From Paracoccaceae bacterium (GTDB lineage Bacteria > Pseudomonadota > Alphaproteobacteria > Rhodobacterales > Rhodobacteraceae), in assembly GCA_019911965.1 (NCBI GenBank), contig JAIOJF010000059.1, forward strand, positions 1 through 64,000: a stretch of 64,000 bases of DNA, read 5' to 3'. The number at the start of each line of letters is the position of its first letter. Position 1 is the stretch's first letter. A program made the position numbers and the translations under genes. Below the pieces are notes generated by a model. That model was not told the DNA's origin and searched no databases. It worked only from the letters and a program-made list of their open reading frames with translations. Below are positions 30,435-35,740 of the stretch, one piece after another.

Positions 30435-31499
30435 ATGTTGCGCCGCCTTCATGCCGACCAACCCGAAAGTTTCGCCTTCACCCCGGCCAATGCCGCCTGG
30501 GCCGAGACGCAGATCGCCAAATATCCCGAAGGCCGCCAGGCCAGCGCCATCATTCCGCTGTTGTGGCGGGCGCAGGAACAGGAAGGCTGGCTGACCCGCA
30601 AGGCGATCGAAACTGTCGCCGACATGCTGGGCATGGCCTATATCCGCGCACTTGAGGTGGCCACCTTCTACTTCATGTTCCAGTTGCAGCCCGTTGGTTC
30701 GGTGGCGCATGTGCAGGTCTGCGGCACCACGTCCTGCATGATCATGGGCGCGGAAGGGCTGGTGAAGCTCTGCAAGAACAAGATCGCGGCGCATGCGCAT
30801 GAATTGTCCGCCGACGGGCGGTTTTCCTGGGAAGAGGTCGAATGCCTCGGCGCCTGCACCAATGCGCCGATGGTGCAGATCGGCAAGGATTATTACGAGG
30901 ACCTGACCGAAGAACGCTTCAGCGAAATCCTCGATGCCTTCGCGGCGGGCGAGGTTCCGGTGCCCGGCCCGCAGAACGGGCGCTACGCGGCTGAACCGAA
31001 GGGCGGGCTGACATCCCTTAAGGATTCAGCAAGTGATCGTGCGCAATATAACGCATCGGTGGCGCTGGCGGTCGAGCTTGGCGATACCATAGCCCGGATC
31101 AAGGGCGACGAAGCGCCTGCGGCAAAGCCGAAGGCACCGGCCAGGCCAGCGGCAAAGCCCGCGGCGAAACCTGCCCCGGCGGCGGCACCTGCGGCGGCAA
31201 GCGGCGAGGGTGTGAAGCCGAAGATGCTCAAGGCCCCCGGAAAGGGCGGCGCGGATGATCTGAAGGCGATCAAGGGCATCGGCCCGGGGCTGGAGGCGTT
31301 GTTGAACGAGATGGGGGTTTTCCATTTCGCGCAGATCGCGGGCTGGACCGGCGATGAAATCGCCTGGGTCGATCAGAACCTCTTGCGGTTCAAGGGTCGC
31401 GCCAGCCGCGACAACTGGGTGGACCAGGCGAAAGTGCTTGCTGAGGGTGGCGAGACAGAATTCTCGAACAGGGTGGCGAAGGGCGACGTATACGACTGA
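30435..31499 (+). CDS. nuoE: NADH-quinone oxidoreductase subunit E with C-terminal H3TH-like tail
   Basis: 354 residues, much longer than the usual ~160-240. The N-terminal ~190 residues are a normal 24-kDa subunit, with the [2Fe-2S] N1a ligands in CGTTSCM (two Cys) and [11 protein letters not shown] (two Cys). A linker rich in Ala, Pro and Lys (~215-258) leads to a compact domain at ~274-338, beginning [20 protein letters not shown]. That domain carries a helix-hairpin-helix GIGPGLE and ends with [13 protein letters not shown]. It matches the predicted 5' nuclease-like H3TH class by pattern. The same domain ends two downstream genes. Confidence 0.95.
31254..31448 (+). repeat. H3TH-like tail domain, copy 1 (in nuoE)
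   Basis: Codes for ~65 residues of NuoE (274-338). By hand alignment about 50 of 65 residues match copy 3 at 33326-33520, including [27 protein letters not shown] and RDNWV. Copy 2 (32633-32836) is more diverged. Confidence 0.85.
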
Positions 31500-31525
31500 C
31501 CTTGACCACGGATTGAGAGGATAGA

Positions 31526-32836
31526 ATGGCGAAACCGAAAAAACAGGGCAGCGGCACATGCGGCACGATCAGTTGGCTGATCGGCGCGATGGCCGGGGCG
31601 TATCTGATCTATGTGATGCTGATCGACCTGAAGCAGGACCTGCTGATTTCGGTGATTGCCGGTATCGGTGCAATGATCGTGGTCGGTTTCGTGCTGGGCC
31701 TGATCCTGTGCTCGCGCAACCGCAACCGCGTGCGCGACCGCCTGGAAGAGGCCGCACCGGTTGCCGCCGCCGCCGCCGCTGCTGACAGTGAATTGTTCGC
31801 AGGTCAGGCCCCGGCAGGCCCGGCACGTCCGGCGCGGATCGTCCCGGCGGCAAGAGGGGCCGAAACGCTTGGAAAGCCTGATGTCGACAAGGTGGATCGC
31901 CAGCTTGACGAACGGCTGGGCCAGGCGGACGCCTCCGACGACAGCGCAGAAGATACCGCGGCGGATTTCAGCGACGAATATGACGATTACGAGGAAGAAC
32001 CGGCCAATACCGTCGCCGCCGATGCGGTGGACGATGCCGAACCGCTGCAGCTGACCGAAACGGTCTCTGAAGACGATGAGGGCGGCGATATCGAGGAACA
32101 GGTCCGCAATGCGGTGGAAGCGCTGGCCACGGGCCTTGCGCGCCCGGCAACGGGGCCGCAAGACGATGCCCCGGAGGCCGGGGATGATAGCCCGGCGGAT
32201 GACGCGGATGATGACAGGAACGAGCCGCAAGCTTCTGAAACGGAACCGGAAATAGAGGTGCAGGCTGAAGAAGCCAATACCGCGAAATCGGACAAGGCCG
32301 CCGCCGTGGCCGCCGCGATCCGCGCCATCGCCTCGGAAGTGCGTGACGAGGACGATGATGGCGACGATGCGCCAGCCGTTGTCGACGCGGGATTGGATGA
32401 CGACAATGTTGACGATTCTCCGGCGGAAATGGACGCGGGCGATGTTGACGGCCCGCAAGCCGCTGACGAGGTGGCGGATGAGCCTGAGGCTGCACCGGTA
32501 GTTGCCGAGACTGCGCCCGAACCTGAAGCCGCGCCCGAACCGGCACCCGAACCGGCCAAGCCTTCTGCGCCAGAGGCAGCGATCAAACCTCTGAAGCCGA
32601 CCGGGCTGGACCAGCCCGAAGGCGGTGAAGGCGACGACCTGACCGCGATCGACGGGATCGGCGAGGTCCAGGCAGCAGCGCTGCACGAGGCCGGCATTTT
32701 CCATTTCGCCCAGATCGTTTCGATGAACCGCCGCGAACTGGCCTGGCTGGATGAAAACATTCCCGGAGAAGACGGGCAGAACGCCTCGGATTCCTGGCGC
32801 AGACAAGCCATCGCCATCGGCAGAAAGGCAGACTGA
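31526..32836 (+). CDS. Membrane-anchored acidic protein with C-terminal H3TH-like domain
   Basis: 436 residues from ATG 31526 (SD GAGAGGAT). Residues 1-70 hold two membrane helices after a short motif GSGTCGTISWLIG; the helices end in LILCSRNRNR. Residues ~75-365 are an extremely acidic, Ala/Pro-rich, probably disordered linker (many D/E runs such as EDDDGDDA). Residues 370-436, starting DDLTAIDGIGEVQAAAL, are a helix-hairpin-helix domain like the NuoE tail. It is a paralogue of the next gene. I do not recognise a known function; it could tether something to complex I or to nucleic acid. Confidence 0.8.
   Translation: MAKPKKQGSGTCGTISWLIGAMAGAYLIYVMLIDLKQDLLISVIAGIGAMIVVGFVLGLILCSRNRNRVRDRLEEAAPVAAAAAAADSELFAGQAPAGPARPARIVPAARGAETLGKPDVDKVDRQLDERLGQADASDDSAEDTAADFSDEYDDYEEEPANTVAADAVDDAEPLQLTETVSEDDEGGDIEEQVRNAVEALATGLARPATGPQDDAPEAGDDSPADDADDDRNEPQASETEPEIEVQAEEANTAKSDKAAAVAAAIRAIASEVRDEDDDGDDAPAVVDAGLDDDNVDDSPAEMDAGDVDGPQAADEVADEPEAAPVVAETAPEPEAAPEPAPEPAKPSAPEAAIKPLKPTGLDQPEGGEGDDLTAIDGIGEVQAAALHEAGIFHFAQIVSMNRRELAWLDENIPGEDGQNASDSWRRQAIAIGRKAD
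32633..32836 (+). repeat. H3TH-like tail domain, copy 2 (diverged)
   Basis: Codes for residues 370-436 of the 436-residue protein. It shares DDL-AI-GIG, HFAQI, ELAWLDEN and a terminal SWRRQA with copies 1 and 3, but has lost the NLLRFKGRA block (reads NIPGEDGQN). Confidence 0.75.
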
Positions 32837-32905
32837 CCGCACGCATACCTTTAGACCAAGTTTCGCCGCCCCGTAATCTTATCCCTTCAGAAGGAGGATC
32901 GAAAG

Positions 32906-33535
32906 ATGAACGACCAGAATGGAAATACCTGCCGCAATTTAAGCTGGCTAGCCGGACTCCTCGCTGGTGTCCTGGTTTTTCTTTATGCGTGGCGCGCGCA
33001 GGAATCGGGGATGCTGTGGGCGCTGTTCATCGGGCTGATCGTGTTCATCGTGGTGGGCTGGCTGCTGATCCGGTTCTTGTGTGAAGCAGGCGGAACCAAA
33101 GCCGCCCCGACGCCGGCACCGGCCCCCAAACCGGCGGCAGCGCCTGCGCCCAAAGCGGCAGCACCGGCCGCCAAACCAGCCCCGGCCCCTGCGGCAGCCA
33201 AGCCCGAAGCGGCACCGGCCAAGCCGGCACCGGCTCCCGCAGCCGAAAAACCGGCCCCGGCAGCGGCGGACGCTTCGGATGCCGCACAACCGTCGGCCCT
33301 GTCGGCTGCGCGTGGTGGCAAGGCGGATGATCTGAAACAGATCAAGGGAATCGGCCCCGGCCTTGAGAAGGCGCTGAACGAGATGGGCATCTACCATTTC
33401 GACCAGATCGCCGCCTGGAGCGCCGCCGAAATCGCCTGGGTTGACGACAATCTGCTGCGGTTCAAGGGCCGGGCCACCCGCGACAATTGGGTGGCACAGG
33501 CCAAGGATCTTGCCGCCGGCAGCAAACAGCATTGA
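32906..33535 (+). CDS. Two-helix membrane protein with Ala/Pro/Lys linker and H3TH-like tail
   Basis: 209 residues from ATG 32906 with a strong SD (AAGGAGG, 32891-32897). Two membrane helices (~12-30 and ~37-60) follow the motif GNTCRNLSWLAG, matching the GxTCxxxSWLxG start of the 436-residue neighbour. Residues ~63-135 are a repetitive KPAPAPAA-type linker. Residues 141-205 form the helix-hairpin-helix domain ([20 protein letters not shown]), nearly the same as the NuoE tail. Predicted topology puts the tail on whichever side the linker exits, most simply the cytoplasm. Function unknown. Confidence 0.82.
   Translation: MNDQNGNTCRNLSWLAGLLAGVLVFLYAWRAQESGMLWALFIGLIVFIVVGWLLIRFLCEAGGTKAAPTPAPAPKPAAAPAPKAAAPAAKPAPAPAAAKPEAAPAKPAPAPAAEKPAPAAADASDAAQPSALSAARGGKADDLKQIKGIGPGLEKALNEMGIYHFDQIAAWSAAEIAWVDDNLLRFKGRATRDNWVAQAKDLAAGSKQH
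33326..33520 (+). repeat. H3TH-like tail domain, copy 3
   Basis: Codes for residues 141-205 of the 209-residue protein; about 77% identical in protein to the NuoE tail (copy 1, 31254-31448), counted by hand. Confidence 0.85.
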
Positions 33536-33548
33536 GGTAAGTCAAGGA

Positions 33549-33776
33549 ATGAAGGCCCCGGCAGGTTATAGCAGCAGGACAGGTCAGATCAGGATCGCGG
33601 CCATCGTGATCTTCCTGACCTTTCCGCTGTGGCTGGGGTTTTCCTGGCTCGGTGGCCGGTTGGGATGGGAAGTGCGATATGTCTTCCTGGCCGATCTTGC
33701 GGCTTTGGCGGCGCTGTTCTGGGCGCTGGTGGTTTTGTATCAGGCCTGGCGCAAGGGCCAGCGGGACGAGGGATAA
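33549..33776 (+). CDS. Small membrane protein resembling DUF5337
   Basis: 75 residues from ATG 33549. A short basic N-terminus (MKAPAGYSSRTGQIRIA) is followed by two membrane helices (~15-32 and ~44-63) and a charged end WRKGQRDEG. Size, topology and position just before nuoF fit the DUF5337 family that I associate with Rhodobacterales nuo operons. The frame is open upstream to 33441, but that would overlap the previous gene. It starts 13 bases after the H3TH protein and ends 3 bases before nuoF, so it is in the operon. Role unknown. Confidence 0.75.
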   Translation: MKAPAGYSSRTGQIRIAAIVIFLTFPLWLGFSWLGGRLGWEVRYVFLADLAALAALFWALVVLYQAWRKGQRDEG

Positions 33777-33779
33777 GCG

Positions 33780-35075
33780 ATGCTGAAGGATCAGGACAGG
33801 ATCTTTACCAATATCTACGGGATGCATGATCGCAGCCTTGCCGGTGCGCGTGCGCGTGGCCATTGGGATGGCACCGACAAGCTGATCAAGAAGGGCCGCG
33901 ACTGGATTGTTGAACAAGTCAAGGCCTCGGGCTTGCGCGGGCGCGGCGGTGCGGGCTTTCCGACCGGCCTGAAATGGTCGTTCATGCCGAAGGAAAGCGA
34001 TGGTCGCCCGTCCTATCTGGTGATCAATGCCGACGAATCAGAGCCGGGCACCTGCAAGGACCGCGAGATCATGCGCAATGATCCCCATACCCTGATCGAA
34101 GGCGCTTTGATCGCCGCCTTCGGCATGGGGGCGCATGCGGCCTATATCTATATCCGCGGCGAATTCATCCGCGAGCGCGAGGTGCTGCAGGGCGCGATCG
34201 ACGAATGCTACGATGCCGGTCTTCTGGGCAAGAACGCCGCCAAATCCGGCTGGGATTTCGACCTCTACCTGCATCATGGCGCTGGTGCCTATATCTGCGG
34301 CGAGGAAACCGCATTGCTGGAAAGCCTTGAGGGCAAGAAGGGAATGCCGCGCATGAAGCCGCCATTTCCCGCCGGTGCCGGGCTTTATGGCTGCCCGACC
34401 ACCGTCAACAACGTGGAATCCATCGCCGTTGCACCGACGATCCTCAGGCGCGGCGCGGACTGGTTCGCCTCGTTCGGGCGGCAGAACAACGCCGGCACCA
34501 AGCTGTTCGCCATTTCCGGCCACGTCAACAATCCCTGCGTGGTGGAAGAGGCGATGTCGATCCCCTTCGAGGAGCTGATCGAAACCCATTGCGGCGGCAT
34601 TCGCGGCGGCTGGGACAATCTGAAAGCGGTGATCCCCGGCGGATCATCCGTGCCGTTGCTGCCGGGGGCGCTGGCGCGCGAGGCGATCATGGATTTCGAC
34701 TGGCTGCGCGACAACCGCTCGGGCCTTGGCACGGCGGCGGTGATCGTGATGGACCAGTCTACCGATATCATCAAGGCGATCTGGCGGTTGAGCGCGTTTT
34801 ACAAGCACGAAAGCTGCGGGCAATGCACGCCGTGCCGTGAAGGCACCGGCTGGATGATGCGGGTGATGGACCGTCTGGTGCGCGGCGAGGCCGAGATCGA
34901 GGAAATCGACATGCTGCTGGACGTGACCAAGCAGGTGGAAGGCCACACGATCTGCGCGCTTGGGGATGCGGCGGCCTGGCCGATCCAGGGTCTGGTGCGG
35001 CATTTCCGCGACGAGATCGAGGATCGCATCAAGGCGCAGAAATCGGGCCGTATCAGCGCGGTAGCGGCAGAATAG
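33780..35075 (+). CDS. nuoF: NADH-quinone oxidoreductase subunit F
   Basis: 431 residues. The NADH/FMN-binding glycine-rich stretch [19 protein letters not shown] (residues ~57-75) and [17 protein letters not shown] (~83) are present, and the N3 [4Fe-4S] ligands lie in [15 protein letters not shown] (three Cys) and [14 protein letters not shown]. NuoF takes hydride from NADH and feeds the iron-sulfur chain with NuoE and NuoG. Full length. Confidence 0.98.
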
Positions 35076-35317
35076 GCGAAGGCGAGGGGACGGGGCAGGC
35101 CATGAAGACGTGCAGCACATATCGCCGCGACGCCGCGCAGATTGCGCGTGCGGAGCGTCTTGCTGCCCTGTCAAACGCCCTCAATTCATTGAAAAATGCC
35201 GTCAGCCAGGCGCTGACCGGGGCCGGTTATTGCATAACAAGGCCGCTGGCTTTCATTTTCCACGGGACAAAAGCGCGAGTCATCGCGCCGCAACCCCGTG
35301 CTGAAAGGAAAGCCCCC
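35076..35317. other. nuoF to DUF5333-like gene spacer
   Basis: 242 bases. A frame beginning at ATG 35102 joins the next gene and would add 72 residues ahead of its signal peptide; I reject that as the start. A small dyad GTCAGC (35201-35206) / GCTGAC (35212-35217) is present. No separate gene is supported. Confidence 0.5.
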
Positions 35318-35740
35318 ATGAAACTCCGTACCGGAAAATCCGTCTTGACGCTGATCACCGCCGCCTCGCTGGCGGCCTCCTCGGCGATGGCGCAATCGGC
35401 CACGCGGCTGGAAGATGACGCGGAAACCTGGGAGCGGCTGTTCATCACCGCCGCCGCCAATGAAATACGCGAGAATTGCGACACTATCGAGGCGCGCAAG
35501 GTCGCGGCCACGTTCTATGTCCTGGGAATCGTGCGGCACGCGAAATCGCTGGGCTTCACCATGGAACAGATCGACGCCTTCCGCTTCGATGAGAAAAACC
35601 AGGACCGGCTGCGCCAGCGCACCTATGCCTGGCTGGACGAGAACGGTGTCGACCGCTCCGCACGAACCGGGTATTGCGCCCTGGGCGATGCGGAGATCGC
35701 AAAGAACAGCCCAATCGGCAAGCTATTGAAACGCGGGTAG
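35318..35740 (+). CDS. Secreted DUF5333-like protein
   Basis: 140 residues from ATG 35318 (SD AAAGGAA). The start gives a good signal peptide (MKLRTGKSVLTLITAASLAA, cleavage after AMA). The mature part has ITAAANEIRENCDTIEARKV and a late YCALGDAEIAKNSPIGKLLK, a two-cysteine pattern (Cys near residues 51 and 123) that I recall from DUF5333, a family found in nuo operons of this order. It probably acts in the periplasm. It ends 3 bases before nuoG. Function is unknown; a maturation role for complex I is only suggested by position. Confidence 0.75.
   Translation: MKLRTGKSVLTLITAASLAASSAMAQSATRLEDDAETWERLFITAAANEIRENCDTIEARKVAATFYVLGIVRHAKSLGFTMEQIDAFRFDEKNQDRLRQRTYAWLDENGVDRSARTGYCALGDAEIAKNSPIGKLLKRG

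Follow-up and report, generated by a model that had tools for sequence, protein, structure and literature searches.

A helix-hairpin-helix tail shared by NuoE and two protein-O homologues in the nuo operon of a Paracoccaceae bacterium

INTRODUCTION

Why should a subunit of respiratory complex I and the two membrane proteins encoded directly downstream of it end in the same helix-hairpin-helix (HhH) domain? The question is raised by the nuo operon of a Paracoccaceae bacterium (assembly GCA_019911965.1, contig JAIOJF010000059.1, positions 1 to 64,000 of the forward strand; this whole stretch of 64,000 nucleotides is referred to as the window), in which nuoE (product P0001) is followed by the genes for P0002 and P0003. 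A sequence-only reading of the window had proposed that the tails associate with one another and dock the membrane proteins on the NADH-dehydrogenase module, with tethering to the nucleoid as an alternative. The core observation, a tail common to NuoE and to protein-O, a subunit of the reaction center-light-harvesting 1 complex (RC-LH1), is already published; according to the available text of the report on Dinoroseobacter shibae, the likeness has been in print since 2025 (PMC12079452). Our analysis adds protein-O in genomes without reaction-center genes, a phototroph in which a copy closes the puf cluster, and the P0002 paralogue.

RESULTS

With P0003 as the query, the end of NuoE was matched at an expect value (E) of 1e-36 and the end of P0002 at 6e-17, and a chance likeness is excluded by these values. 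A profile built from 13 tails, among them the three from the window, whose E values it therefore flatters, detected exactly three tails in the whole 3.67-Mb genome, all at nuo; by this profile, L21 and S2 of the same genome carry no tail. Both searches confirmed that NuoE and two consecutive downstream genes share the domain. The NuoE and P0003 tails were 73% identical, in agreement with an earlier hand count of about 50 of 65 residues, and the NuoE and P0002 tails were 42% identical. P0002 and P0003 were also alike in the hairpin and linker (P0003 residues 4 to 107; E, 7e-7). The identity of P0001 as NuoE was indicated by Pfam PF01257 (E, 7e-53) and by NCBIfam PRK12373 (E, 2e-169; 564.5 bits versus a cut-off of 514).

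Both downstream proteins belong to the protein-O family, whose members consist of a membrane hairpin, a linker and an HhH tail. Residues 7 to 207 of P0003 matched the "reaction center protein O chain" of D. shibae (8yy9) at an E of 2.4e-38, and its linker and tail matched a chain of 9wqv, deposited as "41 kd complex I subunit," at 2e-31. The title of 9wqv gives LH1-RC from Rhodovulum sulfidophilum, and no paper naming the entry was found in a literature search; 9lts is a second D. shibae structure. P0002 matched 8yy9_O at an E of 7e-17, with separate aligned stretches in the hairpin (17.5 bits) and the tail (50.4 bits), and 9wqv at 6e-14. In the AlphaFold2 model of P0003 (predicted local distance difference test [pLDDT] score, 82.6), helices were predicted at residues 5 to 31 and 36 to 59 in a block with pLDDT values of 87 to 96. 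Foldseek superposed this hairpin on 8yy9_O with a root mean square deviation of 0.9 over 52 columns and a template modeling (TM) score of 0.92 by target. The Foldseek probabilities were 1.00 for 8yy9_O (E, 0.53), 1.00 for 9lts and 0.95 for 9wqv, with E values for the three matches of 0.5 to 1.5; by sequence, the 9wqv hairpin scored only 3 bits against P0003. These results bear out the earlier reading of both downstream genes as two-helix membrane proteins.

The available text on D. shibae protein-O describes a hairpin located in the gap between the reaction center and LH1, with Cys10 and Cys59 joined by a disulfide at its cytoplasmic end, and a gene located between nuoE and nuoF; the function was called unknown by its describers in 2025 (PMC12079452). 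The window proteins resemble protein-O (8yy9 and 9lts; 9wqv) in architecture, in gene place between nuoE and nuoF, in the cysteines at the hairpin ends (Table 1) and in the NuoE-like tail. By homology with protein-O, the hairpin ends, and hence the tails, would face the cytoplasm. Protein-O differs in being an RC-LH1 subunit, whereas no reaction-center genes were found in the window organism or in nine congeners, and P0002 is unlike protein-O in its acidic linker and altered tail. The structure of Paracoccus denitrificans complex I (8qby) has the same NuoE core, but its NuoE chain of 239 residues matches only residues 1 to 232 of the window NuoE and is thus uninformative on the tail.

In order to relate protein-O to photosynthesis, genomes were classed as puf+ or puf- according to whether reaction-center L/M genes (PF00124) were found. 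The sample consisted of 196 genomes drawn from the order, all of which belong to the window's own family, and PF00124 was detected in 81. None of the 10 genomes of the window's genus gave a match, neither the window's own (G000; 99% complete) nor the nine others, which include one that is 77% and one that is 83% complete. In the window organism, P0002 and P0003 are thus protein-O homologues and not reaction-center subunits, and since no reaction-center genes were found in the genus, the membrane partner there must differ. Loci of about 5.5 kb upstream of nuoF were then compared for 140 of the 195 other genomes, hand-chosen for genus spread with puf status known beforehand, and for the window. 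All 141 loci contained nuoE, and 130 of the 141 NuoE proteins had the tail, which is therefore family-wide rather than absent from related genomes. A tailed two-helix protein lay between nuoE and nuoF in 105 of the loci, with 107 protein-O genes in total because the window and L126 have two each. A scan of named genomes made with the protein-O family found the family in 67 of the best 80 of 547 loci, each with nuoE, nuoF or both; being seeded with the family, it gives no prevalence. In a class-wide survey of NuoE, which may miss diverged tails, 104 of 114 genomes had a match, and among the matches listed the tail was clear only in the window's family and in G240. The latter genome has a tailed NuoE that is 64% identical over residues 2 to 352 and several more tails, and another genome from outside the family (G252) has two tandem tails in one 507-residue frame.

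Of 69 puf+ loci, 63 contained protein-O, as did 42 of the 72 puf- loci; the odds ratio was 7.5 (P = 6e-6, uncorrected for kinship). On a tree of NuoE alone, three usable pairs differed in puf, too few for significance; a tree of NuoD and NuoE gave 10 supported pairs differing in puf, of which about 8 on average did not differ in protein-O, an underpowered comparison. Hairpin identity between genera was 0.252 for puf+ and 0.229 for puf- genomes, versus 0.086 and 0.078, respectively, after shuffling. The two flanking columns held cysteine in 35 and 36 of the 43 puf- rows, compared with 34 and 34 of the 64 puf+ rows, and the cysteine pair was kept in 35 of the 42 puf- loci with protein-O. A hairpin motif picked post hoc, Q[AG]x[FY], occurred in 26 of 63 puf+ loci, in none of 42 puf- loci, and in D. 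shibae protein-O. One puf+ genome (G134) had no protein-O at nuo; instead, a protein-O-like gene was the last of the puf cluster (L172:3065-3682, minus strand), in the single-strand order pufL, pufM (PF00124), an open reading frame that we take to be dxs, and the protein-O-like gene; bchY and bchZ are likewise assigned by our own reading. Five more puf+ genomes (G046, G062, G094, G191 and G195) lacked protein-O at nuo. A tail search detected the NuoE tail alone in G046 and G191 and no tail in G094, and the extra tails of G195 and G062 were on L21 and on a single-helix protein. The D. shibae and R. sulfidophilum structures, together with the gene in G134 and the motif, indicate that protein-O is a genuine part of RC-LH1 in phototrophs, if not in every one. 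Genomes without puf keep protein-O, which shows that the family is not bound to photosynthesis and indicates another role too. No report of protein-O in nonphototrophs was found in searches of the RC-LH1 and complex I literature, none of which was aimed at that question.

The NuoE tail was modeled by AlphaFold2 as a confident, all-helical domain (pLDDT, 88.9; predicted TM score, 0.80). A profile search of solved structures returned two protein-O chains first, with RadA (9e-4) and eL32 among the later matches, and also matched DinB-type polymerases, PolX and topoisomerase V. In a fold search, the best match was a kinetoplastid mitoribosomal chain, followed by HhH domains, among them those of RadA, NusA AR2, Y-family polymerases and 3-methyladenine glycosylase. 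The first of these matches was to the mitochondrial large ribosomal subunit (PDB 6yxy_BS and 7aoi_BS) and was weak (E, 0.3). The NusA AR domains and the RadA N-terminal domain have a related HhH fold of weak similarity, and the matched structure of NusA AR2 shows it in complex with the protein SuhB. Pfam HHH_5 scored below its curated cut-off of 27 bits for P0002 (21.5 bits) and P0003 (19.3 bits), and no HhH family in Pfam matched NuoE at an E of ≤1. The HhH label is based on the profile search of solved structures, the predicted fold and the GhG hairpin. The earlier "H3TH-like" label was apt insofar as the predicted fold is of a nucleic-acid-binding type, and nothing backs its narrower sense of an H3TH flap nuclease: no nuclease domain was matched in the three proteins, FEN-type H3TH not being compared directly.

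The tail domain also forms part of the NCBIfam models for three other proteins: L21, S2 and PhaH, a phasin. All 21 tails compared with the PhaH model (NF045508) matched it, with a best E of 1.3e-20. The NuoE tail alone aligned with positions 170 to 233 of 234 (E, 2.7e-20), as expected of a homologous C-terminal HhH domain, and scored 73.5 bits, far under the whole-protein cut-off of 250. The original study of PhaH is reportedly that of Salinas 2023. The available text of a review states that the HhH domain of this Caulobacter crescentus protein binds DNA nonspecifically and sets polyhydroxybutyrate (PHB) granules along the nucleoid, and that its N-terminal end binds PHB (PMC13052382). The carriers here are instead a complex I subunit and membrane hairpins; by analogy, the tailed proteins may work like PhaH, and without the phasin N-terminal part they are not themselves a PhaH. 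The C-terminal extensions of L21 and S2 belong to the same domain family on other carriers. L21 was tailed in many of the genomes read (L158, L160 and others) and S2 in one (G008); a literature search found no papers on HhH extensions of L21.

Conserved residues were examined across the tails of NuoE and protein-O, 237 in all. Every tail had the GhG hairpin (237/237), and Arg53 and Arg56 were each present in 236 tails, whatever the carrier. Lys/Arg51 was strictly conserved, and six positions were basic in at least 77% of the tails. The GhG hairpin and basic residues such as Lys/Arg51, Arg53 and Arg56 are of the kind that contacts phosphate in HhH domains. Many other conserved residues were nonbasic.

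The possibility that the tails of NuoE and protein-O pair with each other was weighed against that of a ligand common to both. NuoE had the tail in 97 of 105 loci with protein-O and in 33 of 36 without it. Across genomes, mean tail identity was 0.669 for pairs of NuoE proteins, 0.659 for pairs of protein-O proteins and 0.652 for mixed pairs, compared with 0.682 for NuoE and protein-O tails of the same genome (97 genomes). The within-genome excess over the nearest genome of another genus was 0.024 (P = 0.03; 97 genomes), and the partial Mantel correlation of the tails was 0.16, above all 500 permutations. On a tail tree built from few columns, in which 152 of 244 inner branches were unresolved, the kinds were mixed yet partly clustered (47 NuoE label changes versus a mean of 82.6 when shuffled), and the window's NuoE and P0003 tails were nearest each other. 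On the NuoD and NuoE tree, the NuoE tail and protein-O did not change jointly, with 8 and 6 usable pairs, too few to decide. These results indicated that the tail is nearly interchangeable between carriers; the small within-genome excess could come from gene conversion or weak coevolution. Because the NuoE tail is retained whether or not protein-O is present and the tails of both carriers are alike, the comparisons point to one common cytoplasmic ligand, most likely, as the most economical candidate, a nucleic acid. Tail-to-tail docking was not supported by co-occurrence, by identity within and between genomes, by the tail tree or by the independent pairs.

P0002 departed from this pattern. 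Its tail was the only one of the 237 with none of the six basic positions, the next lowest having three, and its linker was the most acidic of 107 protein-O linkers (net charge, -64). P0002 was matched in 9 of the 10 genomes of the genus; the exception, G310, is 83% complete. Within the regions read, a P0002-type gene was the next tailed gene after nuoE in seven of the nine other genomes, and G011 had no tailed membrane protein at nuo. All eight P0002-type tails (that of the window and seven relatives) had none of the six basic positions, two of which were unaligned in G314. The GhG hairpin was broken in five of the eight, and the window P0002 keeps GIG. Shared motifs of their own were (M/L)N(R/K)RELAW in all eight and WR(K/R)QAI in seven. 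The NuoE and P0003-type tails of these same genomes kept three to six basic positions. An acidic linker was usual in P0002-type proteins and not universal, the G309 linker being basic. The description of this copy as diverged holds for its low identity to NuoE and fails as a picture of random drift: presence across most of the genus, own residues and shared motifs argue that, judged from its sequence, P0002 is a stable paralogue whose tail has been altered.

The features of the locus are given in Table 1. The gene order is nuoE, P0002, P0003, a DUF5337 gene, nuoF and a DUF5333 gene, followed by a large frame read here as nuoG, so that two small DUF genes lie inside the nuo operon, one on either side of nuoF. 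No HhH tail was found in the DUF5337 protein. At the DNA level, two weak partial matches to plasmids were obtained. Further tailed proteins were observed in relatives: a soluble, presumably phasin-like protein between protein-O and nuoF (L040, L043, L062 and L115), and a single-helix membrane protein with an MFRxWGFLL-like start after a frame that we take to be OmpA-like, in all six loci read (L153, L156, L157, L159, L167 and L169).

Table 1. Features of the nuo locus in the window
Feature	Position	Strand	Remarks
nuoE (P0001, 354 aa)	30435..31499	+	thioredoxin-like 2Fe-2S domain, Lys/Ala/Pro linker, HhH tail
HhH tail of NuoE	31233..31454	+	profile match; AlphaFold2; 5/6 basic positions, GIG
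P0002 (436 aa), genus-level protein-O paralogue	31526..32836	+	acidic linker, altered tail
Two-helix membrane hairpin of P0002	31559..31711	+	between Cys12 and Cys62; translation, hydropathy, alignment to protein-O
Acidic linker of P0002	31721..32617	+	isoelectric point 4.05; 85 D/E, 21 K/R
Altered tail of P0002	32612..32824	+	0/6 conserved basic positions
P0003 (209 aa), protein-O homologue	32906..33535	+	8yy9_O match by sequence and fold
Two-helix membrane hairpin of P0003	32930..33082	+	between Cys9 and Cys59; translation, AlphaFold2
HhH tail of P0003	33308..33523	+	profile match; 5/6 basic positions, GIG
DUF5337 small protein	33549..33776	+	between tailed proteins and nuoF; Pfam PF17272, E 6.7e-24
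nuoF	33780..35075	+	anchor of locus survey
DUF5333 gene	35102-35740		after nuoF, inside nuo operon

DISCUSSION

The explanation that we tentatively prefer, as quite possible though short of probable, is that the tails tether membrane energy complexes to nucleic acid and that P0002 is a repurposed duplicate. The tail would be a nonspecific nucleic-acid-binding module, and the tails of NuoE and P0003 would therefore act in parallel. Each tail would anchor a separate membrane energy complex, either at the nucleoid or at some other nucleic acid in the cytoplasm: complex I through NuoE, RC-LH1 through protein-O in phototrophs, and another membrane partner, presumably nonphotosynthetic, through P0003 in the window's genus. 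The model for such tethering would be PhaH on PHB granules, as reported in the available text of the review (PMC13052382). P0002 would be a protein-O duplicate whose tail lost nucleic-acid binding and took on a new use within the genus, perhaps that of a competitor or of a partner that binds protein. Taken as a whole, the sequence-only reading was partly supported: nucleoid tethering, its second choice, now appears better supported than docking because PhaH, the closest relative of the domain for which an activity has been reported, is described as a nonspecific DNA binder.

Several observations weigh against nucleic-acid tethering. No fold match of the tail or of the P0003 model reached an E of 0.001, and the weak profile matches include the unrelated tachylectin-2 and alpha-2-macroglobulin receptor-associated protein. 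The tails are about neutral (median charge, -1), which is weak for a grip on DNA. Linker charge is not conserved, ranging from acidic to basic, and basic linkers as the DNA grip are ruled out on that account. The presence of the domain on the ribosomal proteins L21 and S2 would suit RNA as well as DNA, and HhH domains also bind proteins, the NusA AR2-SuhB complex being among the nearest folds of the tail. We know of no binding assay of NuoE or protein-O tails. Our sole source for DNA binding by PhaH is a review, in its available text (PMC13052382), and the available description of D. shibae protein-O states that the protein beyond the hairpin, including the tail, was unseen in the map (PMC12079452).

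Some of these points would favor a protein-interaction module like the NusA AR domains, through which a common cytoplasmic protein recruits NuoE and protein-O. This alternative survives best and is nonetheless unlikely. It would account for the nearest-fold complex, for the neutral charge and the many nonbasic conserved residues, and conservation irrespective of carrier would suit any common ligand; the strict GhG hairpin, Lys/Arg51, Arg53 and Arg56 speak against it, as does PhaH, reported in the review's available text as a DNA binder (PMC13052382).

Docking, in which paired NuoE and protein-O tails would fix the membrane proteins to the NADH-dehydrogenase module and, in phototrophs, the entire RC-LH1 with them, seems improbable. 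It would fit the operon neighborhood, the small within-genome excess with its partial Mantel correlation, and the closeness of the window's NuoE and P0003 tails to each other. The excess may, however, be gene conversion, NuoE retains its tail about as often without protein-O, no joint change was seen on the tree (with few pairs), and tails also occur on L21, S2, phasin-like proteins and single-helix membrane proteins. Equally little credence is given to binding of RNA or ribosomes, by which membrane complexes would be tied to translation, as in cotranslational assembly; fusion of the domain to L21 and S2 and the eL32 profile match suggest it, whereas PhaH is described, in the review's available text, as a DNA binder (PMC13052382). 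That P0002 and P0003 are functionless relics of a phototrophic ancestor is highly improbable, and was rejected on hairpin conservation in puf- genomes: the excess of protein-O in puf+ loci (uncorrected for kinship) and the post hoc motif would fit a relic, but the frames are open, conservation in puf- genomes is near that in puf+ genomes, the cysteine columns are filled more often in puf- rows, and, in a genus where no puf was found, 8 of 10 genomes have P0002-type genes with motifs of their own.

Beyond the preferred tethering by nucleic acid lies a wider proposal that we offer as speculation and hold to be rather unlikely as it stands. The nuo operon of the Rhodobacterales would encode membrane-anchored nucleoid tethers that predate any photosynthetic role, NuoE for complex I and protein-O for a second complex, with one interchangeable HhH module. 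The photosystem would have adopted protein-O, placing RC-LH1 and complex I in the same nucleoid-facing zones, and P0002 would be a nongripping counterpart that may regulate or release the tether.

The protein-O family is under constraint in many puf- genomes, and its function is to be sought outside photosynthesis too. The link to PhaH makes DNA binding by the tail a concrete and cheap question, for which the P0002-type paralogues, as their sequences suggest, may serve as natural loss-of-binding controls. The possible link between the kinetoplastid mitoribosomal chain and the alphaproteobacterial L21 extension is also worth testing. If the tail does bind DNA, one shared module would link the respiratory and photosynthetic complexes of bacteria physically to the chromosome.

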